Assembly (NCBI GenBank): GCA_005884455.1
Contig: VBCH01000213.1
Coordinates: 1-46,351 of the forward strand
Length of the DNA stretch: 46,351 bases
Source of the DNA: Betaproteobacteria bacterium
GTDB taxonomy: Bacteria; Pseudomonadota; Gammaproteobacteria; Burkholderiales; SG8-39
Reading direction: 5' to 3'
The notes beneath the pieces are model-generated. The model saw only the letters and a program-made list of their open reading frames with translations. It was not told where the DNA came from and made no database searches. Made by a program: the position numbers and the translations under genes. Positions 2,206 to 46,069 of the stretch are shown in pieces (the first letter of the stretch is position 1; each line of letters begins with the position of its first letter).

Positions 2206-3551
2206 GGATTGCAGACCTGACCTGGCTCTCGAAACACGTGTTTTTTCCGCTGTCGGATATCAAGGGCCGCTCTCACCGGCGTCAGTACCTGCGCGAGATG
2301 TCTGCGAGCCAATGGTGGGACGCGGAAAAGTTCCAAACATGGCAAATCGAGCAACTGCGCGGAGCCATGAGCTATGCGTTTGCCCATGTGCCGTACTACA
2401 CAGCGCGATACGGGGCCGCCGGCTTCAAGGGGACGCTTCAAAGCTGGGAGGATTTCAGGCGCTTACCGTTCCTGCGCAAGGAGGACATCCGCAGAAGCGG
2501 AGATGGCCTCATTTCCCGGGAATTCAGACGCCAGGACCTCGTTGAGGCGAGAACCGGGGGGTCGACTGGTACCGCTTTGACGCTCTACTTCGACAGGCGC
2601 TGCCAGGAACTGCGCAACGCCGCCGCTATGCGTAGCAACCAGTGGGCAGGGTGGGACGTGGGCATGAGAGTTGCTGCAATCTGGGGCAACCCGCCGGTAG
2701 CCGATACGCTCAAGAAGAAGCTTCGCAACGCGCTGCTCGATCGCACCATTTACCTGGATACGATGGATATCAACCAACGCAGCGTGCACGATTTCGTCAT
2801 GAAATGGCGGCGCACAAAGCCGAAAATGATCTTCGGTCACTCACATTCCATCTACATCCTGGCCAAGTATCTGGAGGAATTGGGCGTCCGTGATCTGCGG
2901 CCTGAAGGCATCATCTCCACATCTATGATGCTCCTTGCTCCCGAGAGGAGATTCATCGAGCAAGCGTTCGGCTGTGCGGTCACCGACCGTTATGGTTGCG
3001 AGGAGGTCGGGTTGATTGCCTCCGAGTGTGAGCGGCACAACGGTTTGCACTTGAACCTGGACCACGTCGTAGTCGAGTTCCTGCGCGAGGACGGTTCCCC
3101 CGCGAAACCCGGCGAAGATGCAAACATCGTGGTTACCGATCTCATCAATCGCGGCATGCCGCTGATCCGCTATTGCCTCGGGGATAGGGGCGTGCCCAGC
3201 GACCGTATCTGCGCCTGCGGGAGGGGGCACCCGTTGATGGAGCGAGTCACGGGACGCCAGGCGGATTTTCTCAAACGCCCGGATGGCTCTCTCGTGGCCG
3301 GTGTTTCGCTGGTGGAGCGTACTCTGACGGCGATACCGGGAATCGAGCAGATGCAGCTGGTCCAGAACAAGCTGCACCGAATAACGGTCAAGCTGGTGAA
3401 GGGAGGGGAATTTGGCGACAAGTCCGAGAGCGCATTGAAACGCGAACTCCGCTCGGTGTTTGGTGAAGCGGTTGTAATCGAAATCCAGGCCGTACCGGCG
3501 CTGGATCAGACCGGTGCAGGCAAGTACCGTTTTTCCATATGCAACGTCTAG
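2202..3551 (+). CDS. Phenylacetate-CoA ligase-like (PaaK/CapK-type) adenylate-forming enzyme
   Basis: ARTGGSTGTALTLYFDRRC (P-loop-like), TDRYGCEEVGLIASEC, ITDLINRGMPLIRYCLGDRG; start at ATG 2202 overlaps upstream stop. Confidence 0.82.
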   Translation: MRIADLTWLSKHVFFPLSDIKGRSHRRQYLREMSASQWWDAEKFQTWQIEQLRGAMSYAFAHVPYYTARYGAAGFKGTLQSWEDFRRLPFLRKEDIRRSGDGLISREFRRQDLVEARTGGSTGTALTLYFDRRCQELRNAAAMRSNQWAGWDVGMRVAAIWGNPPVADTLKKKLRNALLDRTIYLDTMDINQRSVHDFVMKWRRTKPKMIFGHSHSIYILAKYLEELGVRDLRPEGIISTSMMLLAPERRFIEQAFGCAVTDRYGCEEVGLIASECERHNGLHLNLDHVVVEFLREDGSPAKPGEDANIVVTDLINRGMPLIRYCLGDRGVPSDRICACGRGHPLMERVTGRQADFLKRPDGSLVAGVSLVERTLTAIPGIEQMQLVQNKLHRITVKLVKGGEFGDKSESALKRELRSVFGEAVVIEIQAVPALDQTGAGKYRFSICNV

Positions 3552-3639
3552 TTTCCCGGCTCACTGCGGCAGGACCGCCTGCGATACGGGGCAACCCGAG
3601 CGTGCCTAGGGCCTCCGACTATTTTGCGCAGCCTAGAAG

Positions 3640-4545
3640 ATGAGAGTGGCCGACAAGCCCTTGGTCAGCATTGTCGTGGCTACGTACAATATGGCCGCGT
3701 ACTTGCCGTTGGCGCTTCGTTCCGCGCTCGACCAGACCTATGGCAACGTCGAGGTCCTGGTAGTCGACGATGGATCGCAAGACGATACGCGTGGGGTCAT
3801 GGCGCCTTTTCTGGGCGATCTTCGCGTCAGATATCTGGTTCAGGAGAACCAGGGACAGGCGGTCGCGAAAAACCACGGAATTCGGGAAGCGCGCGGGGAA
3901 TATATCGCCTTTCTCGATGCGGACGACATCTGGGTTCCAGAGAAACTCGAACAGCAGATGCCGCTGTTTTTCCAGTCTGGGTCTGTAGGAGTTGTCTACT
4001 CAAGGCTTGCCTATATCGACGAAACCGGGAAGGAATTGAGCCTTGCGGACAACCAGCTTTTCCGAGGGCGTGTCAGCGGTCCCCTCCTGGTCCGCAATTT
4101 CATAGGCTTTGGGACCAGTGTCGTAAGGAAGGAGTGCTTCGACCGCCTAGGGCGTTTCGATGAGGCCATGAGGATGGGCATCGACTACGATCTCTGGCTG
4201 AGGTTCTCAACACAGTATGAGTTCGATTATGTGGACCACCCGTTGCTCCTCTATAGAGTCTGGTCCGGTCAGATGTCCAACAACTGCAAGAGCCGCTACC
4301 TCAGCGGCATAGCGATCATGGAACGATTTCTAAAACAGTATCCGGATGTCGTGGAAAAGAGTACGCAGGAAGAGGCTTGGGCGCACACCTATGTGGGATA
4401 TGGCCAGTGCGTGCATCGAGTCGATCGACGCGTCGCGCCCGCTCTGAGCCTCTATATTCGGGCTCTGCGCCACAAGCCCGGCTACGTTCCCGCGTGGAAA
4501 GCCATGGTGGCGACTATTCTGGGATTGCGATCGTTCGGGCGATGA
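3640..4545 (+). CDS. Glycosyltransferase family 2
   Basis: VSIVVATYNMAAYLPLALRSALDQTYGNVEVLVVDDGSQDDT ... YIAFLDADDIW: GT-A fold with DXD-like motif. Confidence 0.93.
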   Translation: MRVADKPLVSIVVATYNMAAYLPLALRSALDQTYGNVEVLVVDDGSQDDTRGVMAPFLGDLRVRYLVQENQGQAVAKNHGIREARGEYIAFLDADDIWVPEKLEQQMPLFFQSGSVGVVYSRLAYIDETGKELSLADNQLFRGRVSGPLLVRNFIGFGTSVVRKECFDRLGRFDEAMRMGIDYDLWLRFSTQYEFDYVDHPLLLYRVWSGQMSNNCKSRYLSGIAIMERFLKQYPDVVEKSTQEEAWAHTYVGYGQCVHRVDRRVAPALSLYIRALRHKPGYVPAWKAMVATILGLRSFGR

Positions 4546-5147
4546 ACGCCAACAGAGGACTGTCGTTTTGGTCCCTGATGCGGGCCGACCTAAACCGCTA
4601 CGGAAGCGGCATGTCAATGCCGGCTCTGCTGCGGCGCTATTTGAGTACGCCAGGATTCAAGTATTCATTTTGGATGCGGCTCACCAACCATGTCCGGAAT
4701 AAGAGCGTGATCTGGCGCCCCGCCTACTACTTGTGCCGGTTGATCCTGAATCGTCAGAGCCTGAAATACGGGATATCGATACCTTACAACACCCAGATCG
4801 GGCCGGGGCTATACATCGGCCACTATGGAGGGATCGTGCTGAACGATATGGCCGTGGTCGGCTGCGACTGCAATATCAATCACGGCGTGACCATCGGCGT
4901 GAAGTATGGGGGCAAGAATCCCGGCGTGCCCGTCATTGGCGACCGTGCGTTTCTTGGCCCGGGTTGCGTTGTAATCGGCGGAATCACGCTAGGGAACGAT
5001 GTGGCGGTGGGCGCCAACGCCGTAGTTCTCGAATCGGTACCCGATTCGGGCGTGGTGGCGGGCGTGCCGGCCAGCCTCGTATCAGTGAGGGGGTCGGCGG
5101 AATACGTGGTCAACACGCACACGCGGCGCCCTGCCAGAACTCCCTGA
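4542..5147 (+). CDS. Serine O-acetyltransferase-like hexapeptide-repeat (LbH) acetyltransferase
   Basis: GISIPYNTQIGPGLYIGHYGGIVLNDMAVVGCDCNINHGVTIG ... VIGDRAFLGPGCVVIGGITLGNDVAVGANAVV hexapeptide repeats; ATG 4542 overlaps the GT2 stop. Confidence 0.85.
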   Translation: MNANRGLSFWSLMRADLNRYGSGMSMPALLRRYLSTPGFKYSFWMRLTNHVRNKSVIWRPAYYLCRLILNRQSLKYGISIPYNTQIGPGLYIGHYGGIVLNDMAVVGCDCNINHGVTIGVKYGGKNPGVPVIGDRAFLGPGCVVIGGITLGNDVAVGANAVVLESVPDSGVVAGVPASLVSVRGSAEYVVNTHTRRPARTP

Positions 5148-6320
5148 TCAGTGCATCTCACGCTGCAATTCTGCATACAGTTGCAGGTAGCCCTTTGTCA
5201 TCGCATCCAGCGAGTACCTGGCTTGCTGAACGCGCCGAGCAGCCTCCCCAAGCTGCGTGCGCAGGAGATGGTCTTCATACAGTCGACGGACCGCGTCGGC
5301 CAGAGCTCCTGCATCGCGCGGCGCAACCAACAGTCCGGTAACTTCATTCTGAAGGACCTCCGCGAGTCCGCCGACGCGGGACGCGATAACGGGCGTGCCG
5401 AGCGCCATGGCTTCCAACAGCGTATACGGGAGGCCCTCGTGAAGGGAAGGCATGAGCAAGGCGTCACAGTGGGCAATGAAGCTGTGGGCATCGCGCCTGA
5501 ATCCCAGGAAGTGGACGCGCTCGGACAGGCCGGCGGCTTTCGCCCGTGCGCGCAGCTCGCCCTCGCATGGACCGGTTCCAACTAGGTAGAGTTCGACGTC
5601 CCGAGGCATGCCTTGAGCTGACAAGGCGTCGATGGCCACGTCGAGCGCTTTCACCGGGTCCAGCCTGCCGACGGCGGCGAGGTTGAACCGCTTGGAACGG
5701 AATTCCCGCGGAGGCGGCAGGTCCCCCCTGTCCATACCGGAAATACCGTTGGGAATCAGCCGGGCCTGCCGCGTCGAGCTGCCCGAGTGCTGCGCGAGGA
5801 GCTCCGTAGTCACGCAGCACACCGTGGCATTCGACAGGCGCGTTGCCGCGGCATCGAACAGATGGTAAAAATGGCTGCGCAGCGCCTCGATGGGCTTGCC
5901 GGGTGTTTTCTCCGGCAAGCCGTGTTCCGTCTTCACCAGCGCGAAGCGATACTTGCGACGCGCGATTGCGCAGAACACCATGGCCTTGTAGCCGTGAGCG
6001 TGCACGATGCGCACATTGCGGCTTTCGAGGACGCCGGCCAGTTGCTTCGATGTGGAGAGCAGAAAGCGGTTGCTGTCGGGTAAAATGATGAGTTCGATGC
6101 CGCGCTGGCGTGCCTGGGCGGCCAGTTCGCCGTCGTGGAATAGAAAGAACAGGCTGCTGATGCTCCGCGCCTGAAGAGAGCTCGCCATCTCCAGAACATG
6201 ACGTTCCACCCCGCCAAACAGCTCGCCCACGGTGCACACAGCAATGCACTTGAACGAGGCATCGGTTAAGGTGCTCACGGAGAGTGGCTGGAGTCTTGCA
6301 CAAGTCATGTGTAGCGGCAA
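5148..6320 (-). CDS. Glycosyltransferase family 4
   Basis: GELFGGVERHVLEMASSL..., HEGLPYTLLEAMALGTPVIASRVGGLAEVL; start codon uncertain. Confidence 0.9.
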   Translation of the reverse strand: MPLHMTCARLQPLSVSTLTDASFKCIAVCTVGELFGGVERHVLEMASSLQARSISSLFFLFHDGELAAQARQRGIELIILPDSNRFLLSTSKQLAGVLESRNVRIVHAHGYKAMVFCAIARRKYRFALVKTEHGLPEKTPGKPIEALRSHFYHLFDAAATRLSNATVCCVTTELLAQHSGSSTRQARLIPNGISGMDRGDLPPPREFRSKRFNLAAVGRLDPVKALDVAIDALSAQGMPRDVELYLVGTGPCEGELRARAKAAGLSERVHFLGFRRDAHSFIAHCDALLMPSLHEGLPYTLLEAMALGTPVIASRVGGLAEVLQNEVTGLLVAPRDAGALADAVRRLYEDHLLRTQLGEAARRVQQARYSLDAMTKGYLQLYAELQREMH

Positions 6321-6416
6321 CTATTCTCCCACAGGCGGAACGCCCTGCCGCTCGGCAACGACGGGTTCGGACCGATCCGGGAAATTCGCCCTGATCCGCT
6401 CTTCCGCCGAAGCGGC

Positions 6417-7745
6417 GTGTTTTGTGTCGCCCACATCATGAATTCCTCCGAGGCAAGGATTTCCCCGATTGCGGTGTCCACGACGCCTGGACTCAATCTG
6501 TACTTGCTGTTCGTCTTCAGCTGGTTCGTGCACCTCCCGGCACGCTTGGAATTCCTCGGGGTAATCCGGTTCGATCTGATACTCGTTTGCATTCTGGCCG
6601 TCCTCGCGTTGACGAGGGTTTCCAATGACGAACCGCCGGCGCCGGCTGGAAAGATGCTTCGGTTACTCATCGTGTATGCGATCGTGATGGCCCCTTTCGC
6701 CTACTGGCCGGGCAGCGCGATAAAATCCGGGCTGCCCAATTTCATTAAGGCAGCGGTCTTTTTCTATTTCACGATCGCTTTCGTCAGGACGGAGGCGGAT
6801 CTCAAGAAGTTCGTCCTGATGTTCCTTGCGTGCCAAGTCTTTCGCATCGTCGAGCCGTTGTACCTGAATCTCACGCAGGACTATTGGGGCTCGGCCGCTT
6901 CGATGGGAAACTGGGAGCGCATGCTCAGGCTTTCCGGCGCGCCCAGCGATATCATCAATCCGAACGGGCTGGCGTTCGTGGTGTGCACGGTCCTACCCTT
7001 TCTTTACTTCATGTCGGGGCTGTCATCGAAGTACTTCTTCATGGCGTTGATGCTGGCGCCTGCCTGCCTCTACGTGCTTTCCCTCACCGGTTCGCGTTCC
7101 GGGATCATCGGTCTCGCAGCGTTGATGGTGGGCATCATTGTGAAATCAAAGAGCCGCGCATCCCTCTTTCTGATAACCACGATCGGGCTTGTCGTGCTAG
7201 GAGTCGGTTTCACGTTTCTAGCCCCGGAGCTACAGGATCGATACCTGTCGATCATCGGGAAAGGCGAGAAGAATGCGACAACCGCGGATCAGCGGATGGA
7301 AGGCATGGAGGCGCAGTTTGAAGTCGTGATGAACAGGCCGATCCTCGGGTACGGTCTCGGGACCTCGGCGGAGGCGAATGCGCACTTTACAACCTCGGGG
7401 CCCTACAAGGACCAGGAGCTTCCTGCACACAATCTCTATCTGGAGCTGGCGCAGGAATTGGGCTTGGGGGGGTTGATCATCTTCCTCTTCTTCATCAAGG
7501 AGATCTTCTACGGTTTTGCGAAAAGCAAGAAACTGGGCGCGCGTCACGATCCGGGTGGATTCCTGGCGAGGATGACTGACGCGATGCAGGTATGGCTCGC
7601 GATGAACGTCGTGTTCAGTTTTGCGAGCTATGGATTGTCCAGCTACGAGTGGTATCTCTTCGGAGGGCTCTCGGTTGTGCTGCAGCGTATTGCTGAACGC
7701 GAGTCCGCCGAGGAACTTCCGGCGAAGGACAGCGCCGCCACGTAA
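6417..7745 (+). CDS. O-antigen ligase/polymerase (Wzy/WaaL-like) membrane protein
   Basis: Polytopic hydrophobic protein with NRPILGYGLGTSAEANAHF...AHNLYLELAQELGLGGLIIFL typical of the O-antigen ligase family; start may be ATG 6438. Confidence 0.85.
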   Translation: MFCVAHIMNSSEARISPIAVSTTPGLNLYLLFVFSWFVHLPARLEFLGVIRFDLILVCILAVLALTRVSNDEPPAPAGKMLRLLIVYAIVMAPFAYWPGSAIKSGLPNFIKAAVFFYFTIAFVRTEADLKKFVLMFLACQVFRIVEPLYLNLTQDYWGSAASMGNWERMLRLSGAPSDIINPNGLAFVVCTVLPFLYFMSGLSSKYFFMALMLAPACLYVLSLTGSRSGIIGLAALMVGIIVKSKSRASLFLITTIGLVVLGVGFTFLAPELQDRYLSIIGKGEKNATTADQRMEGMEAQFEVVMNRPILGYGLGTSAEANAHFTTSGPYKDQELPAHNLYLELAQELGLGGLIIFLFFIKEIFYGFAKSKKLGARHDPGGFLARMTDAMQVWLAMNVVFSFASYGLSSYEWYLFGGLSVVLQRIAERESAEELPAKDSAAT

Positions 7746-7748
7746 GGG

Positions 7749-8672
7749 ATGGGCCGATATATTGCGCAAGACCCGCGCTCACGCGGAGTGTCATCACCCG
7801 AAATCTCCTCCGACCGTGATAGTATCGAGTGCCCAGGTACCGCGAAGGTCAGAAGTGCCCACGGTGCGAATTCAAATGTCGAGTCGAAGGTAACTGTGCA
7901 GGACGATCGGTTAAGAAAGGATCTGGCTTCGCGCCACGAGGCCGAATCGGAATTCCACGACCGGAAGTACGGCCGCGGCGAGGGTTTCCCGCGTCACTAT
8001 GCGGTACATCCGACCTACCCCATATATTTGCGAATGTTGAAAATGACGGGGAACCTGGCAGGCAAGCAAGTGCTCGAGTATGGCTGCGGCGATGGAGGGA
8101 TCACGCGGGACCTGGCCCAGAATGGAGCAATGGTCAGCACCTTCGACATCTCCGCCGAGGCGGTGAACAAGACGCATCAAATGCTTGCTTCCGCCGGATT
8201 GGCCGACCGGTGTCGCATCGCTCAGATGGGTGCCGAGCGTCTCGACTACCCGGACGAGTCCTTCGACATGGCCGTCGGTTTTGCCATCCTCCACCACCTG
8301 GATCTCAAATTGGCGATCACAGAACTGTACCGCGTTCTCAGGCCCGGAGGCGTGGCTTATTTCGCGGAGCCGCTCGGAACAAATCCGCTAATAAATCTGT
8401 ACCGACGTTTGACGCCCCAGTATCGAACGGAGGACGAGGAACCCCTCAATCTTAAAGCGCTCGCGCCGCTCTTGAGCAGGTTTCGCAAAGTCGAGCACTC
8501 CGACTACTACGTTACGGCTTTGGCCGCGATCGCGCTCGCCTACCTGCCCTTCGGCTCGCGGTTTTACCCCTCTGTGAATCGGCAATTGATGAAGCTTGAT
8601 GATGGACTGCTGCGGTGGTTCCCCGGTCTGGGTTGGCTTGCCTGGTATACAATCCTGACGCTGAGAAAGTGA
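7749..8672 (+). CDS. Class I SAM-dependent methyltransferase
   Basis: VLEYGCGDGGITRDLAQNGAMVSTFDIS ... VGFAILHHLDLKLAITELYRVLRPGGVAYFAEP; real start may be GTG 7896. Confidence 0.87.
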   Translation: MGRYIAQDPRSRGVSSPEISSDRDSIECPGTAKVRSAHGANSNVESKVTVQDDRLRKDLASRHEAESEFHDRKYGRGEGFPRHYAVHPTYPIYLRMLKMTGNLAGKQVLEYGCGDGGITRDLAQNGAMVSTFDISAEAVNKTHQMLASAGLADRCRIAQMGAERLDYPDESFDMAVGFAILHHLDLKLAITELYRVLRPGGVAYFAEPLGTNPLINLYRRLTPQYRTEDEEPLNLKALAPLLSRFRKVEHSDYYVTALAAIALAYLPFGSRFYPSVNRQLMKLDDGLLRWFPGLGWLAWYTILTLRK

Positions 8673-8901
8673 AGACGCCTTGGGACAATCGGCCCGAGGC
8701 GATCCTATCGGGCGCACATCCCGATAGGTTCCAGCAAGCAGAGCCCGTCCACGATCCTGTGTCGTCCCCTGTTCGCAAAGAAGGGCGAGCAACTCTTTGT
8801 CAGATCCCACCCCGGATCCCGCGCGGCTCGCGAAGCGACGAACGCAAACGAGATGACGGAACACCCGCACTGTACTCCAGCAAGCGACGAGAGAACCAAG
8901 A

Positions 8902-10044
8902 ATGACGATGAAGTCCAGACGGATTCGAAAGATTCGAGTGTTGACCGTCATCGGGACACGGCCCGAAGTGATCAAGATGGCGCCGGTAATTAAAGAGCTC
9001 AGCCAGCGACGGGCCCACTTTGCCGTAACCAACGTGCTAACCGGGCAGCATCGAGAAATGAGCCGTCCGTACCTATCGCTGTTCAAGATACGTCCGCACT
9101 ACGATCTCGACATCATGCAGCGCGCCCAATCCTTGGACGGAATCGTCGAGAGAATACTCCAGCGGCTGCCGCGGGTGCTGGAAGAGGTCAGACCCGACAT
9201 CGTGCTGGTGCAAGGCGACACTACATCCGCGTTTGCGGCGGCTCTTGTCGCATTTCATCGGCAAATCGCAATTGGTCACGTGGAAGCCGGGTTGCGGACG
9301 AACAATAAATACAATCCCTATCCGGAGGAGCTGAATCGCCACCTCATTGGGACCCTGGCGGACCTGCATTTTGCGCCGACGCAGATGGCCCGACGCAGCC
9401 TGTTACGGGAAGGGGTGGCAGCGGCGAACATTTTCGTCACGGGTAATACCGTCATTGATGCGCTAAAGAGCGTCGCGCAGCAGCGCTTCGCGTTCACCGA
9501 TGCGGTCCTCGCGAAAATCCCGTACGGGCGCCGCCGTGTAATCTGCGTGACGATACACCGGCGAGAAAGCTTCGGCACGCCGATACGAAACATACTGAAG
9601 GCTCTTCGCCGAATCGTCGATCGGTACTCGGACGTCGAGGTCGTAATTCCAGTGCACTACAATCCGAACGTGCGGGAGCAGGTATTCCGATTCCTCGCCG
9701 GCGTTGAGCGGATACATCTGATCAATCCCCTCCCATACGAAGCGTTCGTGCATTTGATGAACCGCTCCCATCTGGTGCTTACCGATTCCGGGGGAATCCA
9801 GGAGGAGGCTCCGGCGCTCGGCAAGCCGGTGCTGGTGCTACGGGAAACGACGGAGCGACCCGAGGGAATCCGCGCCGGAACCGCAAAACTTGTCGGCACG
9901 GATTCCGACCGTATCGTGAGCTCGACGGCGAAGCTTCTCGATCACGATCGTGCTTATCGCAGCATGGCGCAAGCCGTTAATCCTTACGGCGACGGCCGGG
10001 CAGGCATGCGAATCGCCAGGATTCTTCAGGCGCGCTACGGCTAG
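8902..10044 (+). CDS. wecB: UDP-N-acetylglucosamine 2-epimerase (non-hydrolysing)
   Basis: VLTVIGTRPEVIKMAPVIKEL, GQHREM, VQGDTTSAFAAALVAF, HVEAGLRTNNKYNPYPEELNR, LTDSGGIQEEAPALGKPVLVLRETTERPEG. Confidence 0.96.
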   Translation: MTMKSRRIRKIRVLTVIGTRPEVIKMAPVIKELSQRRAHFAVTNVLTGQHREMSRPYLSLFKIRPHYDLDIMQRAQSLDGIVERILQRLPRVLEEVRPDIVLVQGDTTSAFAAALVAFHRQIAIGHVEAGLRTNNKYNPYPEELNRHLIGTLADLHFAPTQMARRSLLREGVAAANIFVTGNTVIDALKSVAQQRFAFTDAVLAKIPYGRRRVICVTIHRRESFGTPIRNILKALRRIVDRYSDVEVVIPVHYNPNVREQVFRFLAGVERIHLINPLPYEAFVHLMNRSHLVLTDSGGIQEEAPALGKPVLVLRETTERPEGIRAGTAKLVGTDSDRIVSSTAKLLDHDRAYRSMAQAVNPYGDGRAGMRIARILQARYG

Positions 10045-10130
10045 ATGCGCCGAGTCTGTGTTCGTCGTGCGCTGCGGCGAAACACATCTTTGTGCTTCCC
10101 ATGCCGTGGAGCCGTCAGCCGGAGACTGCA

Positions 10131-11324
10131 ATGGGTCGCAGGATGAAAATAGGCATCATCTGGAAAAACGACTTCCCATGGGACGTGAGGGTGGAGAAGA
10201 TCGCGCGCTCCTTGCTTGCGATTGGCCATGATGTCTACATCCTCAGCGCCAATACTCAAAGGCGGGCGAGGTACGAGACCCTTGACGGGATGGGCATCCG
10301 GCGGCTGCCGGCGACGCCAAGCCGCTGGCTCAATGCAGTCATCTCGATCCCGTTCTATCTCAACCCATTCTGGTTCCTCTTCGCCTCCCAGGTGGTGCGC
10401 CGCGAGCGAATCGACCTTATCATCGTTCGCGATCTGCCCCTTATCCTCGTGGGATTGTGGTTGAAACGTAGCTTCCGCGTGCCGCTCATTCTGGACATGG
10501 CCGAGAACTATCCCGCCATGTACCGCGAGGCGCTCGATATTGGAGGATGGCGGGCCTGCGTATATCTAATTGCGAAGAATCCGAAGATCATGGAGTTCGT
10601 CGAACGGCAGACGCTGGGATCGGTCGATCACATACTCGTGGTCGTCGAGGAATCCGCCGAGCGGCTGATGCGGCTCGGCATTCCGGGAGGAAGGCTCTCC
10701 GTGGTCAGCAATACCCCTCGCCTCGAAGATCTCGACCGTCCCGCGATCTTGGAGCACCGGCCACATTCCTGGCTGCAACTGATTTACACCGGATTAGTGC
10801 AGGAAGCGCGGGGGCTTGAGGTCGTAGTGCGCGCGCTGCTCCTGCTGCGAGAGCGGGGTCTGGATGTTCGCTTCCGGATTGTCGGCGGGGGCAACTACTT
10901 GAGCCGGCTGGTTGAAATGGTGAGAGAGAAGGGCCTGCAGGATGCTGTCGAGTTTACCGGGTGGGTTGCGCACCAGGAAGTCGCCAGCCACGTGAACGAT
11001 GCAGATGTGGGTGTGATCCCGCACCCGAAAAACGACCATACCGACACCACGATTCCGAACAAGCTTTTCGATTACATGGCCTGCGGCAGGCCGGTTGTCG
11101 TTTCAAGCGCGGCACCACTTGAACGAATCGTCACCCAGGAGCGCTGCGGACTGGTATTCACGGCCGGCAGTCCTGAGAATCTGGCCGACGTCCTCGCGCG
11201 CATGAGCGCCGATGGGGCGGCGCGCGAAGAAATGGGGCGGAATGGAGCCAAGGCGGTGAGGCGGCGCTTCCATTGGGAACGCGACGCCGGAGCATTGAGA
11301 GACGCCGTCGCTCGCTTCGCCTAA
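10131..11324 (+). CDS. Glycosyltransferase family 4
   Basis: MGRRMKIGIIWKNDFPWDVRVEKIARSL; C-terminal GT4 motif FDYMACGRPVVVSSAAPLERIV; GGAG 5' of ATG 10131. Confidence 0.9.
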   Translation: MGRRMKIGIIWKNDFPWDVRVEKIARSLLAIGHDVYILSANTQRRARYETLDGMGIRRLPATPSRWLNAVISIPFYLNPFWFLFASQVVRRERIDLIIVRDLPLILVGLWLKRSFRVPLILDMAENYPAMYREALDIGGWRACVYLIAKNPKIMEFVERQTLGSVDHILVVVEESAERLMRLGIPGGRLSVVSNTPRLEDLDRPAILEHRPHSWLQLIYTGLVQEARGLEVVVRALLLLRERGLDVRFRIVGGGNYLSRLVEMVREKGLQDAVEFTGWVAHQEVASHVNDADVGVIPHPKNDHTDTTIPNKLFDYMACGRPVVVSSAAPLERIVTQERCGLVFTAGSPENLADVLARMSADGAAREEMGRNGAKAVRRRFHWERDAGALRDAVARFA

Positions 11325-11471
11325 GACGAGGCGGGCAAGAAGCGCTGCGCTCTTGACCTAACGCGCCGGAGGACTGCATGATTTGCCGCTGCCCGAATTC
11401 GTAAGGCCTCGGGGGCGCGGACCTTGGCACAGGGCGGGATTGACCAAGCAGAAGGAGGGAACTTGCGCACC

Positions 11472-12464
11472 ATGGATGTCGAGCTGGCCATCCGCGAAGG
11501 CACGTCGAAGGTGGACGGGGATGCTCGTTTCGTCGCCAGACCGGCCTTGTATATTTCAATCGTTCTCGGCGTTGTCCTGGCGGCCTACGCTTACAAGCTT
11601 CGGACCGACGGCATTTTCGCTTGCTCAGCCGAGGGCTACACCTCCGACCGCTACCTGGCCTACTGCCACGCAAAAGGTTACGGCGACTATGAGCACGGCG
11701 CATTCTGGTTTGGTCTGGAGCCCTCTACCCAGGACTTCGCGAGGACCGCGACGGTGCTGTTCCTCGGGAACAGCCGACTGCAGATCGCGCTCTCCACGGT
11801 TGCGACGGCCGATTGGTTCTCATCGGCCGCTGCCCGATATTTCCTGATGGGCTTCGGTTACGACGGAAACGTCGTATTTGAAGGAGCGCTACTACGTAAA
11901 TTCAAGCCCCAAGCCAAGGTCTACGTGATCAACATCGAGCGGTTCTTTGACCAATTCGAGTCTCCGCCGGCCCGGACTGTCATGCGGGACTCCTCCGCGG
12001 GAAATCAATACGAATTGAAACGCATTGGGCAATTCGCGCATGAGCCCAGTTGCAAGGCAATCCCGCTCATATGCGGCAGCCGATATACCATCTTTCGTTC
12101 ACGCGAAACGGGGGCTTATCATGTGAATGGATTGGCCGAGTTCAAGAAGCGAGCCGTGTCCTATGACCAGACCATCGACCAAGCCGCGGCCCAAAACGAA
12201 ACGGAGGCCGCAAGAGAGTTTCTGTCTGGCCTCCCCGTCGAGCGCGATTGCGTGATACTGACAATGATTCCTTACGCCGGAACGAAACTCGGAACTGCAA
12301 ACGCCATAGCCAATGCTCTGGGGATGGATCTCGTGATACCCCAGCTTGACGGACTGCAGACATTTGACGGATCCCATTTGGATCAAACAAGCGCTGAGCG
12401 CTGGTCTGAGGCTTTCCTCACGGCAGCGGGCCCCCGGATTCGGAAATGCCTAGATAGACAGTAG
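11472..12464 (+). CDS. SGNH-hydrolase-like membrane-anchored protein (possible AlgJ/AlgX-type acyl-transfer partner)
   Basis: N-terminal TM (ALYISIVLGVVLAAYAY), block I-like VLFLGNSRLQI, C-terminal block V-like FDGSHLDQTSAERW (D-x-x-H); in ORF 11424..12464. Confidence 0.6.
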   Translation: MDVELAIREGTSKVDGDARFVARPALYISIVLGVVLAAYAYKLRTDGIFACSAEGYTSDRYLAYCHAKGYGDYEHGAFWFGLEPSTQDFARTATVLFLGNSRLQIALSTVATADWFSSAAARYFLMGFGYDGNVVFEGALLRKFKPQAKVYVINIERFFDQFESPPARTVMRDSSAGNQYELKRIGQFAHEPSCKAIPLICGSRYTIFRSRETGAYHVNGLAEFKKRAVSYDQTIDQAAAQNETEAAREFLSGLPVERDCVILTMIPYAGTKLGTANAIANALGMDLVIPQLDGLQTFDGSHLDQTSAERWSEAFLTAAGPRIRKCLDRQ

Positions 12465-12477
12465 GCTTACGCTCTGA

Positions 12478-14436
12478 GTGTCAGACATATCACTTCACGC
12501 CGTACCAGGTCCCTTGCGGAGCAACGCGCCGCACCTTCCAACGTCGATGACTTGGCTGCCAGCCGCGTCGGATTTCCGGAGAGATCTGCGCGCAGCGCTG
12601 GGAACTGCGGATTCCACGACGCGCGTGGAAAAGCTGGCCTCTCTGGCCCAGCACCGGCTCGGCTTTCTTGAGACTATGCAGCTCGATCGGTCCCTCGGCC
12701 GAATCACGTCGGACACAGTGCCCGGGTTTTCCCTGGTGCGCCTTGCAATCCTTGCGTCGTCCACAGTCGACCACCTTGTGCCCGCGATCCGGGTCGCGGG
12801 CTTGCGTCGGCGGCTCCTGATCGACGTTCATGTCGGAGCCTACGGACAGCACCGGCAGGACCTGTTGGATCCGGCCTCCCAGCTCTACCGGTTCGGCCCG
12901 CAGACCGTCCTGTTGTCCCTTACGGCGCGCGACGCGACGGCCGGCGTCTCGCTCACGGCCACGACCTCCGAGGTCGACCAGGCGATCGCCCGCTCCATCG
13001 ATGAATTGCGTCATCTGTGGCGAAAAGCCCGAGAAGCGTTCAAAGCGACCGTGATTCAGCAAACCTTTCTGGATGCCACCCATCCGGTATTCGGCAGCTA
13101 CGACCGCCTCGTCCCGGGGACACCTTCTCGGCTGGTGGCTCGGTTGAACGATCTCTTGTCGCAGGCTGCATCATCCGAAGGCGTGTTACTCCTCGACATT
13201 GCACGAGCCAGCGAGCGTGACGGGATCGACGCGTGGTTCGATGCAGTACGCTGGATGCAGGCGAAGATGGAAATCGCGCCCCAAGCCGCGCCTTTGTACG
13301 GTGACTTGGCGGTCCGAATCATCGCGGCCCAACGCGGGCTATCCAAAAAATGCCTCGTCCTCGATCTCGACGACACGTTATGGGGTGGGGTCATAGGAGA
13401 CGATGGGCTCGAGGGCATCGTGCTTGGAGAAGGCAGCGCGTCTGGCGAGGCGCACCTCGCCCTCCAACGCTATGTGCTTCAACTGAAGGCGCGCGGCGTC
13501 ATTCTGGCCGTTTGCTCCAAGAACGACCCGGTGATCGCCGAGGCTGTATTTCGCGATCATCCGGAAATGGTCCTTAAGCGGCCGGATATCGCCGCCTTCG
13601 TGGCGAACTGGGATGACAAGGCCGAAAACCTCAAGGCCATTGCGGCACGCCTGAACATCGGCCTCGACAGCCTAGTATTTGTGGACGACAACCCCGTGGA
13701 ACGGGCGCGTATCCGCGAAAGCCTCCCCATGGTCGCGGTTCCAGAACTCCCGGAAGACGTCGCACACTATGTGCGCTGCGTTGCGGACGCGGGGTACTTC
13801 GAAGCCGTTAGCTTCACTCCCGACGATCAGCGGCGCTCCGACCAATATGCCGCTAATGCCGAACGCGAAGCCTTGTTAGGGTCGTCCGAAAGTATGGACG
13901 ATTTCCTGCGCGGTCTGCGAATGTCCGTCGTATTCGGACCCGTCAAGGCGGTCGATTTTGCTCGCGTAACACAGCTGATCAACAAAACCAATCAGTTCAA
14001 CCCGACAACACGGCGATGTACCGCTGAAGAACTGGCCGCGATCGCGGCTGCCCCGGAGGCCGTGACCCTGCAATTCCGGCTCGTTGATCGATTCGGCGAC
14101 AACGGCCTCATCAGCGTGTTGATTCTTCGCCCGGACCCCGGGCGACCGGACGTGCTCGAGATTGAGACTTGGGTCATGAGCTGCCGCGTGTTCGGCCGAG
14201 AGCTTGAATTTGAAGCCATGAACATTGCGGTCGAGATCGCTCGCCGCCGTGGGGCTCGCGCGCTTCGCGCCAACTACATCCCTACCAAGAAAAACGGCGT
14301 GATCCGCGATCTGTATCCGAGTCTCGGCTTCACCCGCGCAAATGAGGAGGCACCAGCAAACGCGGCCATACACTGGTCCCTGAACTTGGCCGAGTATGTC
14401 GCTCGGAAAACCCACATTGATCGGCTAGAAAAATAG
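12478..14436 (+). CDS. FkbH-like HAD-IIIC family protein with C-terminal GNAT-like region
   Basis: KCLVLDLDDTLWGGVIGDDGLEGIVLG, GVILAVCSKNDP, LVFVDDNPVERARIR, NKTNQFNPTTRR, DRFGDNGLISVLIL; GTG start. Confidence 0.93.
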   Translation: MSDISLHAVPGPLRSNAPHLPTSMTWLPAASDFRRDLRAALGTADSTTRVEKLASLAQHRLGFLETMQLDRSLGRITSDTVPGFSLVRLAILASSTVDHLVPAIRVAGLRRRLLIDVHVGAYGQHRQDLLDPASQLYRFGPQTVLLSLTARDATAGVSLTATTSEVDQAIARSIDELRHLWRKAREAFKATVIQQTFLDATHPVFGSYDRLVPGTPSRLVARLNDLLSQAASSEGVLLLDIARASERDGIDAWFDAVRWMQAKMEIAPQAAPLYGDLAVRIIAAQRGLSKKCLVLDLDDTLWGGVIGDDGLEGIVLGEGSASGEAHLALQRYVLQLKARGVILAVCSKNDPVIAEAVFRDHPEMVLKRPDIAAFVANWDDKAENLKAIAARLNIGLDSLVFVDDNPVERARIRESLPMVAVPELPEDVAHYVRCVADAGYFEAVSFTPDDQRRSDQYAANAEREALLGSSESMDDFLRGLRMSVVFGPVKAVDFARVTQLINKTNQFNPTTRRCTAEELAAIAAAPEAVTLQFRLVDRFGDNGLISVLILRPDPGRPDVLEIETWVMSCRVFGRELEFEAMNIAVEIARRRGARALRANYIPTKKNGVIRDLYPSLGFTRANEEAPANAAIHWSLNLAEYVARKTHIDRLEK

Positions 14437-14437
14437 T

Positions 14438-14680
14438 ATGGGTGATCAAGAAATCCTGGATGTACTGACCCGTGTTCTGCGCGACCTTTTGATGGACGAC
14501 TCGATCGTACTCACGAAGGAAACCCGACGGGAGGACGTTCCCAACTGGGATTCCCTGATTTACATCAGTTTCATTGTCGCTGTCGAAATCGAGCTTGGCA
14601 TCAAGTTCAGGGTGGCCGACGTAGAGTCTTTTGCCAACGTCGGGGCGATCGTCGCCCAGATAAAGTCGATGCCGCGATAA
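14438..14680 (+). CDS. Acyl carrier protein
   Basis: 80 aa, phosphopantetheine attachment motif NWDSLIYISFIVAVE (Ser codon 14552-14554); adjacent to FkbH-like gene. Confidence 0.88.
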   Translation: MGDQEILDVLTRVLRDLLMDDSIVLTKETRREDVPNWDSLIYISFIVAVEIELGIKFRVADVESFANVGAIVAQIKSMPR

Positions 14681-14710
14681 CCCGCGTTCCACCAACCCAG
14701 GCGCCAAACC

Positions 14711-16342
14711 GTGCTATTCAACTCGTATGAGTTTATTTTCTTTTTTTTGCCGCTGACCACCGCCGGCTTTTTCGCGCTGGGCAGCCTTTCTCGGGCGTGG
14801 TCGCTGCGCTGGTTGATTCTTGCGTCGTTCTTTTTCTACGCGTGGTGGAGACCGCTCAACGTACTACTCATCGCACCGTCTATCCTGATCAATTACGCGC
14901 TGGCGCGAATGCTCCAGCGATTGGGTCGGAACGAGAGCCGCCGCCGTGCTTCCAGGGTAGTCCTCATACTGGGTATTGCGTTCAACGTCGCGTTTCTCGG
15001 ATATTTCAAATATACGAACTTCCTCGGAGGCGCGATCAACGATCTGTTCGGCGCCGATCTGATCCTGACGGAAATAATTCTGCCCCTGGGCATATCTTTT
15101 ATCACGTTTCAGAAAATTGCCTTCTTGATCGACGTTCATGCGGGGCGCATCGAGCCCTTTACGCTCCAGGAATATTGCCTGTTCGTGTTGTTCTTTCCTC
15201 AGCTCATTGCTGGTCCGATCGTTCATTATCGCGAGATGATGCCGCAGTTCCAGAGCGCGCCTTGCCGATTTGACAAGGAGAACATTGCGGTCGGCGTAAC
15301 ATTGCTGTTGTTCGGATTGTTCAAGAAGGTGGTACTTGCCGACAGCATTGCGCCCCACGTTACGTCGATTTACGGGCAGGCAGCAGCCGGCGGCAGCATC
15401 TCATTTTTTCTGGCATGGATGGCCGCGATAGGCTTCACGCTGCAGATCTATTTCGACTTTTCAGGCTATTCGGACATGGCGCTGGGAGCGGCCCGGTTGT
15501 TCGGGATCCGGTTACCCCAGAACTTCAATTCGCCGCTTCAGGCATCGAGCATCATCGATTTCTGGCTGCGCTGGCACATGACGCTGACGCGTTTTCTGAC
15601 GGCGTATATCTATAACCCGCTGGTGCTCGCATTGACACGGCGTCGCCTGACGAGGGGCCAGCCCGGTTTCGCCGGGCACAGGACGACTCTCGGGGCATTC
15701 GTCCAACTGATGATGTTCCCCACATTACTCACGATGTTCGTCTCGGGAGCATGGCATGGCGCCGGTTATCTGTTCATCCTGTGGGGTTTGCTCCACGGCG
15801 TCTATCTCACGATCGCTCACGCGTGGCGCCTGGTCGCACCTAGGTTCTGGCGGGATAGAAATGACTACGCGCGATTCATGAAACCCTTCGGGCTGGTGCT
15901 GACCTTGGTCGCGGTGGCTGTCTCGATGGTCTTGTTCCGGTCTTCGACGACCGCGGCCGCCGTCGACCTCTTGAAGGGGATGATCGGACTGAACGGCGTT
16001 GCGCTGCCGGCCTCGGTCTACAAGACCCTCGGTCCGCTCGCCGCGTGGCTGGACAGCCTAGGCGTGATCCGCGATCCGGGGAATGATTGGGACTTCATTA
16101 AGATGACGATTTGGATTCCCGTCCTGACATTCATCGCCCTGTTTTGCCCGAATACGCTCCAGGTCCTTGCTCGATACGAACCGGCGCTCGGCGTAAAGCC
16201 GAGTCCTTCGGACGCAGCCGTCGCCGGACGAAAGATTGAATGGAGTCCCTCGCTGGCTTGGGCCTTCGCAGCGTCAGTGATCGCAGGAATCGGAATCCTC
16301 TCCCTGGGTGGGAAAAGCGAATTCCTCTACTGGCAATTCTAG
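14711..16342 (+). CDS. MBOAT-family membrane-bound O-acyltransferase (AlgI/DltB-like)
   Basis: MLFNSYEFIFFFLPLTT, LGISFITFQKIAFLIDVHAG, FFPQLIAGPIVHYREMMPQ, DFSGYSDMALGAARLFGIRLPQNFNSP, SGAWHGAGYLFILWGLLHG. Confidence 0.96.
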   Translation: MLFNSYEFIFFFLPLTTAGFFALGSLSRAWSLRWLILASFFFYAWWRPLNVLLIAPSILINYALARMLQRLGRNESRRRASRVVLILGIAFNVAFLGYFKYTNFLGGAINDLFGADLILTEIILPLGISFITFQKIAFLIDVHAGRIEPFTLQEYCLFVLFFPQLIAGPIVHYREMMPQFQSAPCRFDKENIAVGVTLLLFGLFKKVVLADSIAPHVTSIYGQAAAGGSISFFLAWMAAIGFTLQIYFDFSGYSDMALGAARLFGIRLPQNFNSPLQASSIIDFWLRWHMTLTRFLTAYIYNPLVLALTRRRLTRGQPGFAGHRTTLGAFVQLMMFPTLLTMFVSGAWHGAGYLFILWGLLHGVYLTIAHAWRLVAPRFWRDRNDYARFMKPFGLVLTLVAVAVSMVLFRSSTTAAAVDLLKGMIGLNGVALPASVYKTLGPLAAWLDSLGVIRDPGNDWDFIKMTIWIPVLTFIALFCPNTLQVLARYEPALGVKPSPSDAAVAGRKIEWSPSLAWAFAASVIAGIGILSLGGKSEFLYWQF

Positions 16343-42521: not shown

Positions 42522-42998
42522 ATGAGCACGATTCCGCTGACCACGACCGGGGCCGAGCAGCTGCGACTGGAGCTGCACCGCCTGAAAACGGTGGAACGGC
42601 CGAACGCGATCACGGCGATCGCCGAGGCGCGGACTCACGGCGATCTCTCGGAGAACGCCGAATACGACGCGGCCAAAGAGCGCCAGGGCTTCGTCGAAGC
42701 CAGGATCAAGGAGATCGAGAGCAAGCTTTCCAACGCGCAAGTCATCGACCCGAAGCGGGTGGACGCGGACGGGCGGTGCGTGTTCGGCGCGACGGTCGAC
42801 CTCGAGGAGACGAAGGCGGGCGAGTCCGTCACGTATCAAATCGTCGGAGACGACGAAGCCGACATCAAGAAAGGCAAGATCTCGATCAGCTCGCCCATTG
42901 CGCGGGCGCTGATCGGCAGGTCCGCGGGGGACCAGGTCGAGGTGCAGACTCCGGGCGGAGTGCGCAGGTACGAGGTGCTCGAAGTCCGCTACGAGTAG
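42522..42998 (+). CDS. greA: Transcription elongation factor GreA
   Basis: [66 protein letters not shown]. Confidence 0.97.
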
Positions 42999-43226
42999 CC
43001 TTTCGGACGGGTCTTCGCTTCTCGAAATGGAATCGAAGTGCGGAAGAGAAAGCGGAATAGACGAAATATTAGCGACGCCAAGAAAAGGCGATCGAAGTGC
43101 GGTTGCGAGTGCTATGGACACGAGTTCGACGTTGCGGGGAGTGCTCGGCGACTAAACTCGGATCGGACGTTGGAACATAACGGCACTGGAACCGACGAAT
43201 AATTTCCAAAACCACCTTTGCCATGG

Positions 43227-43682
43227 TTAGTCTCCGCGCCCGCGATGATAGACGAGAGCAACATCCCCCGTTTCAAGCAGCGACTTGAGATTCGATATGA
43301 CCATCGGCCAGCCCTCCGACACGGCTCCGATGAACTTGGAGTCCGGCCGTTCAATCGAATGGGTGAGTGTGAGCTTCGCGGACTCTCCCGTGGGCTCAAT
43401 CTCGTAGACGCAACGGGAGTTGCCCTCTGCCTTGAACTCGGGCTTCCATTCATTTAGCCAACTCATCACCAGCCGCTTCTGCGGAACGCTCTCGAGAATC
43501 TCGCCCGAGTCCATGAGGCTTCCGTCAGCATACATTCTCCACGTGGAGCCGACCTTCCATTCGCTTTCGACGCTCATTCCGAACCGATACTGCTTTATGA
43601 TCCCGGGCGTTGTTAGTGCATGCCAAAGCTTCTCGGGTGTTATGCGGATGTACGTAACGTAAACAAATTTCGAGCCTGGCAT
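43227..43682 (-). CDS. SRPBCC/AHSA1-family protein (possible integron cassette gene)
   Basis: FVYVTYIRITPEKLWHALTTPGIIKQYRFGMSVESEWKVGSTW ... KLTLTHSIERPDSKFIGAVSEGWPMVISNLKSLLETG. Confidence 0.85.
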   Translation of the reverse strand: MPGSKFVYVTYIRITPEKLWHALTTPGIIKQYRFGMSVESEWKVGSTWRMYADGSLMDSGEILESVPQKRLVMSWLNEWKPEFKAEGNSRCVYEIEPTGESAKLTLTHSIERPDSKFIGAVSEGWPMVISNLKSLLETGDVALVYHRGRGD

Positions 43683-43735
43683 TGGATTGTCCTAGGTTTG
43701 CGATCCGCTTCTTTGCGGACGGACCCGCCACACGA

Positions 43736-43780
43736 GCCTAACGTCCGAGCTAAGGCCGCGGCCCGTCAGGTGCGGAATCT
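43736..43780 (-). other. attC-like site, 3' half (R'-L' side), separated from its partner by the IS
   Basis: Minus strand GCGGCCTTAGCTCGGACGTTAGGC; GTTAGGC matches the GTTRRRY core; complementary to the half at 45019..45051. Confidence 0.7.
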
Positions 43781-43808
43781 TCCCCCGATTTTGTTGACAC
43801 CGGGTTAG

Positions 43809-44609
43809 TCATGCCAGCTGTTTCTCGTACGCCGCTGGCGGCACGTAGTTCAACGACGAGTGTAGCCGAGTGCCGTTGTAGAAGGGAATGTAGGCGCGTA
43901 CCGCCGATTGGATCTCGCGGTCCTCGTTGAAGGTCAAGCCGTGCACGATATCGGTCTTCATGGAGTGGAAGAATGACTCGATGTGGATATTGTCGGTCAG
44001 CTTACCGGGTCGGTTCATGCTCTGGGTGATCCCGAGCTCGGCCAAGCGCGCCTTGAAGGCGAGGGCAGCGTACTCGATCCCTCGGTCGGTGTGGAAGATC
44101 AGCCCCCGCGCAGGCCTTCGGGTGCGTACCGCCCGATCCAGTGCTCTGAGCGTGAGCGCCACGTCCTTGCGCTTGCCGTAGGCCCAGCCCAAGACCCGGC
44201 GCGAGTACTTGTCCATCACCACCGCGAGGTAACGGTAGATCGCTCCCACCTTCAGGTAGGTGATGTCCCCGACCCAGACCTGGTCCGGGGTCCTCAGATC
44301 GACATCGAGTTGCTCGTTGCGCGTGGCTGAGAAGAAGTGCTGGAGAGTAGGGTTGGTGTAGCGAATCGTCGCCACCCGGGCCCGGATGCCGTGCGCGCGC
44401 ATCAGCCGCGCCACCCGGTTCTCACCCACGCAACAGCCCTCGCGCTTGAGCACCTGGTACACGCGCGGGCTGCCGTAGGTGCCGCGGCTTGCCCGGTGCA
44501 CCGCTCCAATGCGCTTGGCCAGTGTCTCGTTCTGGTGCTCTCGCTCGCTACGCTCGCGTGAGCACCAGCCATAGAACCCGGCCCGGGTCACCCCATAGAC
44601 TCGGCACAT
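43809..44609 (-). CDS. IS3-family transposase OrfB (DDE integrase core)
   Basis: HTH_21-like RGTYGSPRVYQVLKREG; VWVGDITYL (D), IFHTDRGIEY (D), NIHIESFFHSMKTD (E); open upstream in the -1 frame. Confidence 0.95.
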   Translation of the reverse strand: MCRVYGVTRAGFYGWCSRERSEREHQNETLAKRIGAVHRASRGTYGSPRVYQVLKREGCCVGENRVARLMRAHGIRARVATIRYTNPTLQHFFSATRNEQLDVDLRTPDQVWVGDITYLKVGAIYRYLAVVMDKYSRRVLGWAYGKRKDVALTLRALDRAVRTRRPARGLIFHTDRGIEYAALAFKARLAELGITQSMNRPGKLTDNIHIESFFHSMKTDIVHGLTFNEDREIQSAVRAYIPFYNGTRLHSSLNYVPPAAYEKQLA

Positions 44610-44971
44610 CAGTGCGACTTGGTGTTCGGCCCGGTTTGCTTCGATGAATTCGAAGGCTTCCGCTTTCGATCGGAAGCAAACCGGATGGCTTTTTTTAGGA
44701 GCTCGTGCTCCTCCTTGAGCACCTTGTGCTGCCGCTCCAGTACCCGCAGGCGCTTCAACTCCGCAGCCGTATGTACATCGAGCTTTGCACTCTTGGCCAC
44801 GATCACCCCGTCACGGACTTGTTTGCGCCACAGTGACAGCATGAACGGGTGGATGTCCAGCGCCGCCGCCACATCCTGAATCAGAACCCCCGGCAGACTG
44901 CTCAACTTCACCGCCGTCGCCTTGAACTGCTCGTCGTAGCGCGCAATCTTTTGTGGTCCTGCCCTTGCCAT
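44609..44971 (-). CDS. IS3-family transposase OrfA (HTH)
   Basis: ARYDEQFKATAVKLSSLPGVLIQDVAAALDIHPFMLSLWRKQVRDG ... leucine-rich coiled coil LKRLRVLERQHKVLKEEHELLKKAI. Confidence 0.93.
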   Translation of the reverse strand: MARAGPQKIARYDEQFKATAVKLSSLPGVLIQDVAAALDIHPFMLSLWRKQVRDGVIVAKSAKLDVHTAAELKRLRVLERQHKVLKEEHELLKKAIRFASDRKRKPSNSSKQTGPNTKSH

Positions 44972-45018
44972 TTCACACCTCCGAGCTGTTAGCCCAAGGT
45001 GTCAACTAATTTGGGGGA

Positions 45019-45051
45019 ACTCTAGCGTCGGCCTTCAGCGAGTGGTTAGGC
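45019..45051 (-). other. attC-like site, 5' half (R''-L'' side)
   Basis: Minus strand GCCTAACCACTCGCTGAAGGCCGACGC; GCCTAAC matches RYYYAAC; begins 6 nt after the stop of the 45058..45540 gene. Confidence 0.7.
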
Positions 45052-45057
45052 GTATGA

Positions 45058-45540
45058 CTACACACTGCCAGGCCCCTGCTTACGGAACAGGAAGTTGTAA
45101 ATGATGGATGGAATGCAAATGTGAGTAGTGCTGACCAGCGCCGCCACAAGGATGAGCGGAACGCCGAGCGCAAACCCAAGTGTGCTTGCACCCATATAAA
45201 AGGCCCAACCCGTGGCAATTAGCCACGCAAAGGCTAAGCCGCAGGCAAACTTGCGCTGCGGGCCGTTGTGCGGAAATGGACGCGTCCCGGTGAAATGCCG
45301 AACCCCATAGTTGTAGAGAAGGTCAAACGGATGGAATGGGAGGAATGCGCCGAAGAAGGCCGTGGCCGCGAGTAACCACAACACGACGGGCGACTGCATG
45401 GCAACGCCAAGGATCATGAAGAACGTACAAAGAACAGGGGACCACCTTAACCATGGCCCCACTTCTGCCAAGGTTGCGTCATCAAGGCCGCAAAATCCCT
45501 GTTCTTCGAGACGATGCCGAATTATTGGATTCATGGACAT
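45058..45540 (-). CDS. DUF4395-like small membrane protein (possible integron cassette gene)
   Basis: MSMNPIIRHRLEEQGFCGLDDATLAEVGPWLRWSPVLCTFFMILGVAMQSPVVLWLLAATAFFGAFLPFHPFDLLYNYGVRHFTGTRPFPHNGPQRKFACGLAFAWLIATGWAFY; strong SD AAGGAGGGAG. Confidence 0.75.
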   Translation of the reverse strand: MSMNPIIRHRLEEQGFCGLDDATLAEVGPWLRWSPVLCTFFMILGVAMQSPVVLWLLAATAFFGAFLPFHPFDLLYNYGVRHFTGTRPFPHNGPQRKFACGLAFAWLIATGWAFYMGASTLGFALGVPLILVAALVSTTHICIPSIIYNFLFRKQGPGSV

Positions 45541-45585
45541 GGCTCCCTCCTTGTTTCATACGTCTAACGTTCAATCACCTTCCGA

Positions 45586-45690
45586 AAAACCATCTATCAC
45601 GGCAGGCAGTTTAACCTTCATTCAAAAAGGCTTGTGCAAACACCGTTTTAGCATTGCCGTGCAAAAGCGCAGCGGATGATAGATGGTTTT
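45586..45690. repeat. Inverted-repeat-bounded noncoding element
   Basis: Perfect 14-bp arms AAAACCATCTATCA (45586-45599) and TGATAGATGGTTTT (45677-45690); nested CACGGCA (45598-45604) / TGCCGTG (45655-45661). Confidence 0.7.
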
Positions 45691-45742
45691 AGGTAGGCCA
45701 AGTCTTTGATCGAACAGGCCGTGAACCCTTGCAAGGTCCCTA

Positions 45743-46069
45743 CTAACGCCCGCGGCCCTTCTTGCGAAGCGATTCCTCCCGCGCACCGGGAGGCGGTTCG
45801 GGGTTCTCACGGAACAGGACGAGGACCTTTCCGATGTGCTGAACCGGGTGCGCTCCGGTTCGGCTGCAGATCTCCGCGAAGATCACTTCGCGCTTGGTGC
45901 GGTCGGCGCAAGGAACGCGCACTTTGATAAGCTCGTGGCTTTTCAGACCGCGGTCGATTTCCGCGAGGACTGCGGACGTCAATCCGGCTCCGCCGATCAA
46001 TACGACCGGATCTAGTGGGTGCGCGCGCGCCTTCAATTCGCGCCGCCGACTGGGCGATAATCCGGGCAT
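45743..46069 (-). CDS. yhbY: YhbY/CRS1-type RNA-binding protein
   Basis: LSPSRRRELKARAHPLDPVVLIGGAGLTSAVLAEIDRGLKSHELIKVRV...QHIGKVLVLFRENPEP. Confidence 0.94.
   Translation of the reverse strand: MPGLSPSRRRELKARAHPLDPVVLIGGAGLTSAVLAEIDRGLKSHELIKVRVPCADRTKREVIFAEICSRTGAHPVQHIGKVLVLFRENPEPPPGAREESLRKKGRGR

Follow-up and report, generated by a model that had tools for sequence, protein, structure and literature searches.

An integron attC site split by an IS3-family element from a clade that very probably homes to attC

Cassettes between yhbY and greA

The window analysed here is a stretch of 46,351 nt, contig VBCH01000213.1 of assembly GCA_005884455.1 (Betaproteobacteria bacterium, SG8-39). 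On its minus strand, yhbY, an attI-like region, a DUF4395 gene, an attC site split by an insertion sequence (IS) and an AHSA1-like gene follow one another; greA comes next on the opposite strand. The chromosomal gene yhbY (45743..46069, minus strand), upstream of the cassettes, encodes an RNA-binding CRM domain (PF01985, E=1e-25), and the order carB-greA-yhbY-rrmJ was kept in relatives. The first cassette gene (45058..45540, minus strand) encodes a 160-aa DUF4395 membrane protein (PF14340, E=5e-18) and the second (43227..43682, minus strand) a 151-aa AHSA1/SRPBCC-like protein (PF08327, E=1e-22), downstream of which no clear attC was found.

The attI-like region (45555..45736, minus strand) ends at the crossover G^TTAGAC (45568/45567), with no integrase gene adjoining. 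In four relatives (G035, G005, G014 and G010) it had homologues immediately upstream of intI; the loci concerned are L066 (69% identity over 135 bp, E=4e-14), L074/L059, L065 and L084. A perfect 14-bp inverted repeat (45586-45599 / 45677-45690) lies within the region and also occurs in the attI region of G010. That the repeat forms a mobile or invertible element of its own was ruled out; it was assigned to the attI-like region because the alignment with L066, in the same orientation, spans 135 bp. A full integron integrase (479 bits) was detected in the same genome, located at the end of contig C286 and not beside the window array. This full-length gene (L011, C286:7250-8194) has a LexA-box-like sequence upstream, and the assembly truncates its cassette array. 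Elsewhere in the genome, 23 attC sites were detected at E<=0.01. In terms of the CALIN criteria (attC sites lacking a nearby integrase), the window array has no intI beside it and a single (split) attC, with an attI-like region present and intI on another contig. Integrons were present in 33 of 61 relatives of the family. At L076 (G057 1781-15720), a very homogeneous attC array of more than 30 cassettes lies beside intI and could serve as a yardstick.

The greA-yhbY junction (window 42998-45743; L018, L019 and L020) is a variable spot in the genus. At this junction the congener G002 carried other cassettes and an intact 89-nt attC, G003 a different insert (a different gene), and G001 almost nothing. 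The yhbY stop codon falls in a CGTTAG motif resembling a cassette crossover, both in the window and in G002.

The interrupted attC site and the inserted element

The IS is 1250 bp long (43775..45024, minus strand), with ends placed from homologous copies and the empty site, and is flanked by a 3-bp duplication, CGC (43772-43774 / 45025-45027). Its 22-bp inverted repeats (43780-43801 and 44998-45019) are subterminal; an element ending at these repeats (43780-45019) was ruled out by the other copies and the empty site. OrfA (44609..44971, minus strand; 120 aa) contains an HTH_Tnp_1 domain (PF01527, E=2.5e-12), and OrfB (43809..44609, minus strand; 266 aa) is a DDE/rve transposase (PF00665, E=5e-25; NF033516, 266 bits). 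Both frames are intact and overlap in -1 phase, with an A7G run (44689-44696, minus strand) as the putative slippery site for a -1 frameshift from OrfA into OrfB. IS3-family elements have terminal inverted repeats and produce a short (3-5 bp) target duplication. The HTH OrfA, the DDE/rve OrfB, the A-rich slippery site, the 22-bp inverted repeats and the 3-bp target site duplication (TSD) agree with this family, as an earlier note on this DNA had proposed for the element interrupting the attC; the refined extent of the IS is less than the whole gap. Its termini are TAGAG...GATTC, not the usual 5'-TG...CA-3'. Because TG...CA termini are common but not strictly defining, the IS3 assignment stands on the transposase. 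One copy of the IS was present in this draft genome.

The 5' half of the attC (45025..45051, minus strand) comprises R'' GCCTAAC (45045-45051) and L'' and runs through one TSD copy (CGC, 45025-45027); the 3' half (43736..43774, minus strand) comprises the other copy (CGC, 43772-43774), the loop remainder, L' and R' GTTAGGC (43736-43742). Removal of the IS and one CGC copy from the window leaves a 63-nt site, GCCTAACCACTCGCTGAAGGCCGACGCACCTGACGGGCCGCGGCCTTAGCTCGGACGTTAGGC. Its complementary R boxes fit RYYYAAC / GTTRRRY and pair at 7/7 positions, and its L boxes pair at 9/9 with one extrahelical base; the earlier note was right on both pairings. The spacing that it gave, 6 nt after the stop of the upstream gene, also holds (DUF4395 stop at 45058, R'' at 45051).

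An intact counterpart, L091 (QHZN01000370.1), was recovered by a DUF4395 protein search. Its identity with the window was 99% along 1326 bp spanning rrmJ, yhbY, the attI-like region and DUF4395, and 99% along 116 bp beyond the IS. It carries an uninterrupted 63-nt attC of the same length as the rejoined window site, with two loop bases different. The empty site that the earlier note had suggested looking for therefore exists in a near-identical relative, and the two halves, which it had read as one site, are contiguous there. QHZN01000370.1 is binned as an acidobacterial MAG yet is 99% identical to the proteobacterial window, a mis-binned public contig. An attC covariance model was trained on 37 array attC sites, mostly beside integron integrases of related genomes and with the window excluded. 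The intact L091 allele, taken as a stand-in for the IS-deleted window sequence, scored 50 bits (E=1.9e-9), in line with the covariance-model check that had been proposed. The separate window halves scored 17 and 15.6 bits (E>0.1), which is background, so standard attC searches would miss the split site. The bottom strand of the L091 attC folded at -20.2 kcal/mol (z=-4.5; 0/200 shuffles as good), a typical attC hairpin. An Rfam search returned no attC match. Judged by its sequence, the window site is a genuine integron attC, split by an IS3-family element. Observations beyond those of the earlier note are the exact IS ends and duplication, the attI-like region upstream, and a recurrent, position-specific insertion across genomes.

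Placement of related copies

Three kinds of search gathered other copies: IS DNA similarity, applied to 99 genomes of the family; the inverted-repeat pattern by itself, applied to 400 genomes of the order; and OrfB protein similarity, applied at class, family, order and phylum level. The DNA query extended a few bases into attC at its ends; the other two queries contained no attC sequence. Many of the sampled loci are MAG contig ends. No copy at 60% identity or more was found in the plasmid collection.

In 14 of the 17 left ends with flank, a YYAAC-type R'' started 26-28 nt ahead of the IS (27 nt in most), against a background of 0.87% at random positions of the same loci (P=9e-27). A 15th left end, L109, had the variant GCATAAC at the R'' place; the exceptions were L104, with R'' at 53 nt, and L142, without R''. 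Four of the five left ends recovered by pattern only were in attC (L130, L131, L137 and L139, not L142). At the right ends, a standard R' box was present in 8/15 and a variant R' in 3 more, and no R' was found at L102, L106, L122 and L135. Orientation was constant, the transposase reading in the cassette direction. In unrelated attC sites the insertion point lay immediately apical to the L'' box, with R'' starting 26-28 nt away, and the distance from the IS to R' varied from 37 to 69 nt. Matching 3-bp TSDs were found in 4/4 complete main-lineage copies tested (CGC, CGC, CGC and, in L137, TGT). In the complete main-lineage copies each attC half paired best with its own partner, with 8-9 of 9 L pairs compared to 6-7 for swapped halves. 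Upstream flanks were at most 41% identical between copies; since these flanks upstream of R'' are unrelated, the insertions are independent. Neighbouring intact attC sites accompanied copies in their arrays.

Distant members also lay in attC at the same place, including L144 (OrfB 57%), L151 and L154 (about 48%) and, from another class of the phylum, L155 (43%); the right half of L152 (about 48%) lies in attC as well. No clean TSD was seen by eye in L144, L151 and L155. Three further members of the clade could not be scored clearly: L145 had only a degenerate R box, L146 was truncated and L147 had no flank. All attC copies fell in one clade of a maximum-likelihood OrfB tree (support 100/100), with a boundary that rests on 13 OrfB sequences. 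The copies at 48-49% OrfB identity were dropped as outgroup controls, some of them lying in attC, and nine plasmid-borne IS3 copies were used instead. All nine fell outside the attC clade, and no R'' was found at that position in their flanks where the ends could be placed.

By this positional record, the insertion in the window attC is not a chance event, its position and orientation recurring across genomes. An ordinary IS without target preference, landing in attC in one genome, would fit the single copy in this genome and the abundance of integrons in the family, where some ISs will land in arrays. However, at least 14/17 copies from many genomes share position and orientation, and even for insertions confined to arrays, with an attC every few hundred bp, a 3-nt window would be hit in <1% of cases. 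Chance is extremely improbable on these position statistics, unless the sampled copies descend from one insertion. Such descent is what is supposed if one old insertion in attC was followed by spread of the IS-bearing cassette through the integron integrase, the transposase itself not homing. In that case the IS would belong to a cassette, which IntI could in principle move, and the intact attC sites beside the copies agree with this. Against it, no upstream cassette gene is shared among the unrelated upstream cassettes, the R''-L'' and L'-R' halves vary among copies and fit their own partners best, the TSDs differ, and at the near-identical L091 locus the same cassettes stand free of the IS, so we regard spread by IntI as very unlikely. 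That the hairpin is a terminator or a REP-like palindrome is hardly credible, even though REP-targeting IS3-family elements are known (IS1397, ISKpn1 and ISPsy8; PMC1525189), given the canonical R and L boxes with their extrahelical base, the match of the intact L091 allele to a model trained on integron arrays, the attI-like region upstream, the integrase and the 23 attC sites that the genome carries, and, at the same locus in G002, other cassettes accompanied by an intact attC. The reading we prefer, that a genuine attC was hit by an IS3-family element belonging to a clade that homes to attC, is very probably correct.

Target recognition and known attC-targeting elements

From IS3-family biology, OrfAB would be made by -1 frameshifting, excise the element as a circle and insert it by DDE chemistry. 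The transposase may recognise attC by its R''-L'' arm, in the form of sequence or of an extruded hairpin, and cut beside this arm, preferring GA^CGC. That recognition acts on the R''-L'' side is suggested because the R'' distance is constant while the R' distance varies with loop length. A preference for GA^CGC is likely, though not absolute, TGT being used in L137. The target is non-coding and present in every cassette array, so the IS would gain a safe and portable home; lying between the L boxes, inside the crossover points, it would be part of the upstream cassette.

Homing may involve the duplex sequence only, that is the R''-L'' arm with GA^CGC, and not the folded attC, a sub-variant to which we give somewhat less than an even chance. 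GACGC ended about 13/16 interrupted left halves compared to about 17/37 attC sites in general (alignments counted by hand), and the position is fixed to the R''-L'' side while the R' distance ranges widely, which favours a duplex target. On the other hand, GC-rich genomes contain GACGC often, and even so R'' lies about 27 nt away in nearly all cases; L137 was inserted at TGT but still in attC. A bolder proposal, which we consider unlikely, is that a deep IS3-family clade over several Pseudomonadota lineages has a DDE transposase that recognises folded attC (cruciform or single-stranded), and that the IS-bearing attC is still mobile by IntI. In the folded-attC proposal the R and L boxes are kept, so the IS-bearing site could still be excised and integrated by IntI, and the IS would travel in two ways, by its own transposase and as a cassette passenger.

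Cassettes for antibiotic resistance and many others move through attC sites, the joints of integrons. An attC-seeking IS branch, if real, would be a new kind of attC parasite. It would conceal sites from attC-finding software, as the background scores of the window halves indicate, and could freeze or co-mobilise cassettes. As a tractable DDE system, the clade could also be used to address the question of hairpin reading by a transposase. In a plant-microbiome integron survey, 23% of phyllosphere cassette transposases were of the IS3 family (PMC11089894), a share for which attC homing could partly account. No report of attC homing by the IS3 family was found in the literature searched, a scope to which ISfinder and most subscription papers did not belong, and priority is unproven.

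Two kinds of element are established as homing to attC, IS1111 of the IS110 family and the group IIC introns. The IS1111-attC group (ISKpn4 and ISPst6; IS110 family) homes specifically to attC (Tetu & Holmes 2008 and Post & Hall 2009, as cited in PMC12444791 and PMC11187229); its DEDD transposases act with a non-coding RNA as guide and are directed at one end of attC (PMC11187229). The window element resembles this group in being an insertion sequence that homes specifically to integron attC. However, its transposase is of the rve/IS3 type, not the DEDD type of the IS110 family, and as a DDE element of the IS3 family it generates a 3-bp duplication and is placed between the L'' box and the loop. 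Group IIC-attC introns are likewise mobile elements specific for attC, also in integrase-less arrays, but they are retroelements, integrated after or within the bottom-strand hairpin close to R'' and oriented opposite to the cassettes (PMC7923331), whereas the window IS, a DNA transposon, points the same way as the cassettes. Within the IS3 family, IS1397, ISKpn1 and ISPsy8 insert specifically in REP/PU repeats, and the target choice of IS1397 and ISKpn1 is set by the transposase (PMC1525189). These elements share with the window IS a specificity for palindromic, hairpin-forming repeats; they target REP, and the window clade targets attC. Like the window IS, IS3-family copies in Vibrio chromosomal integrons lie within a cassette array, there a large one (PMC11023631), but the copy described had moved into a cassette coding sequence, not into attC.
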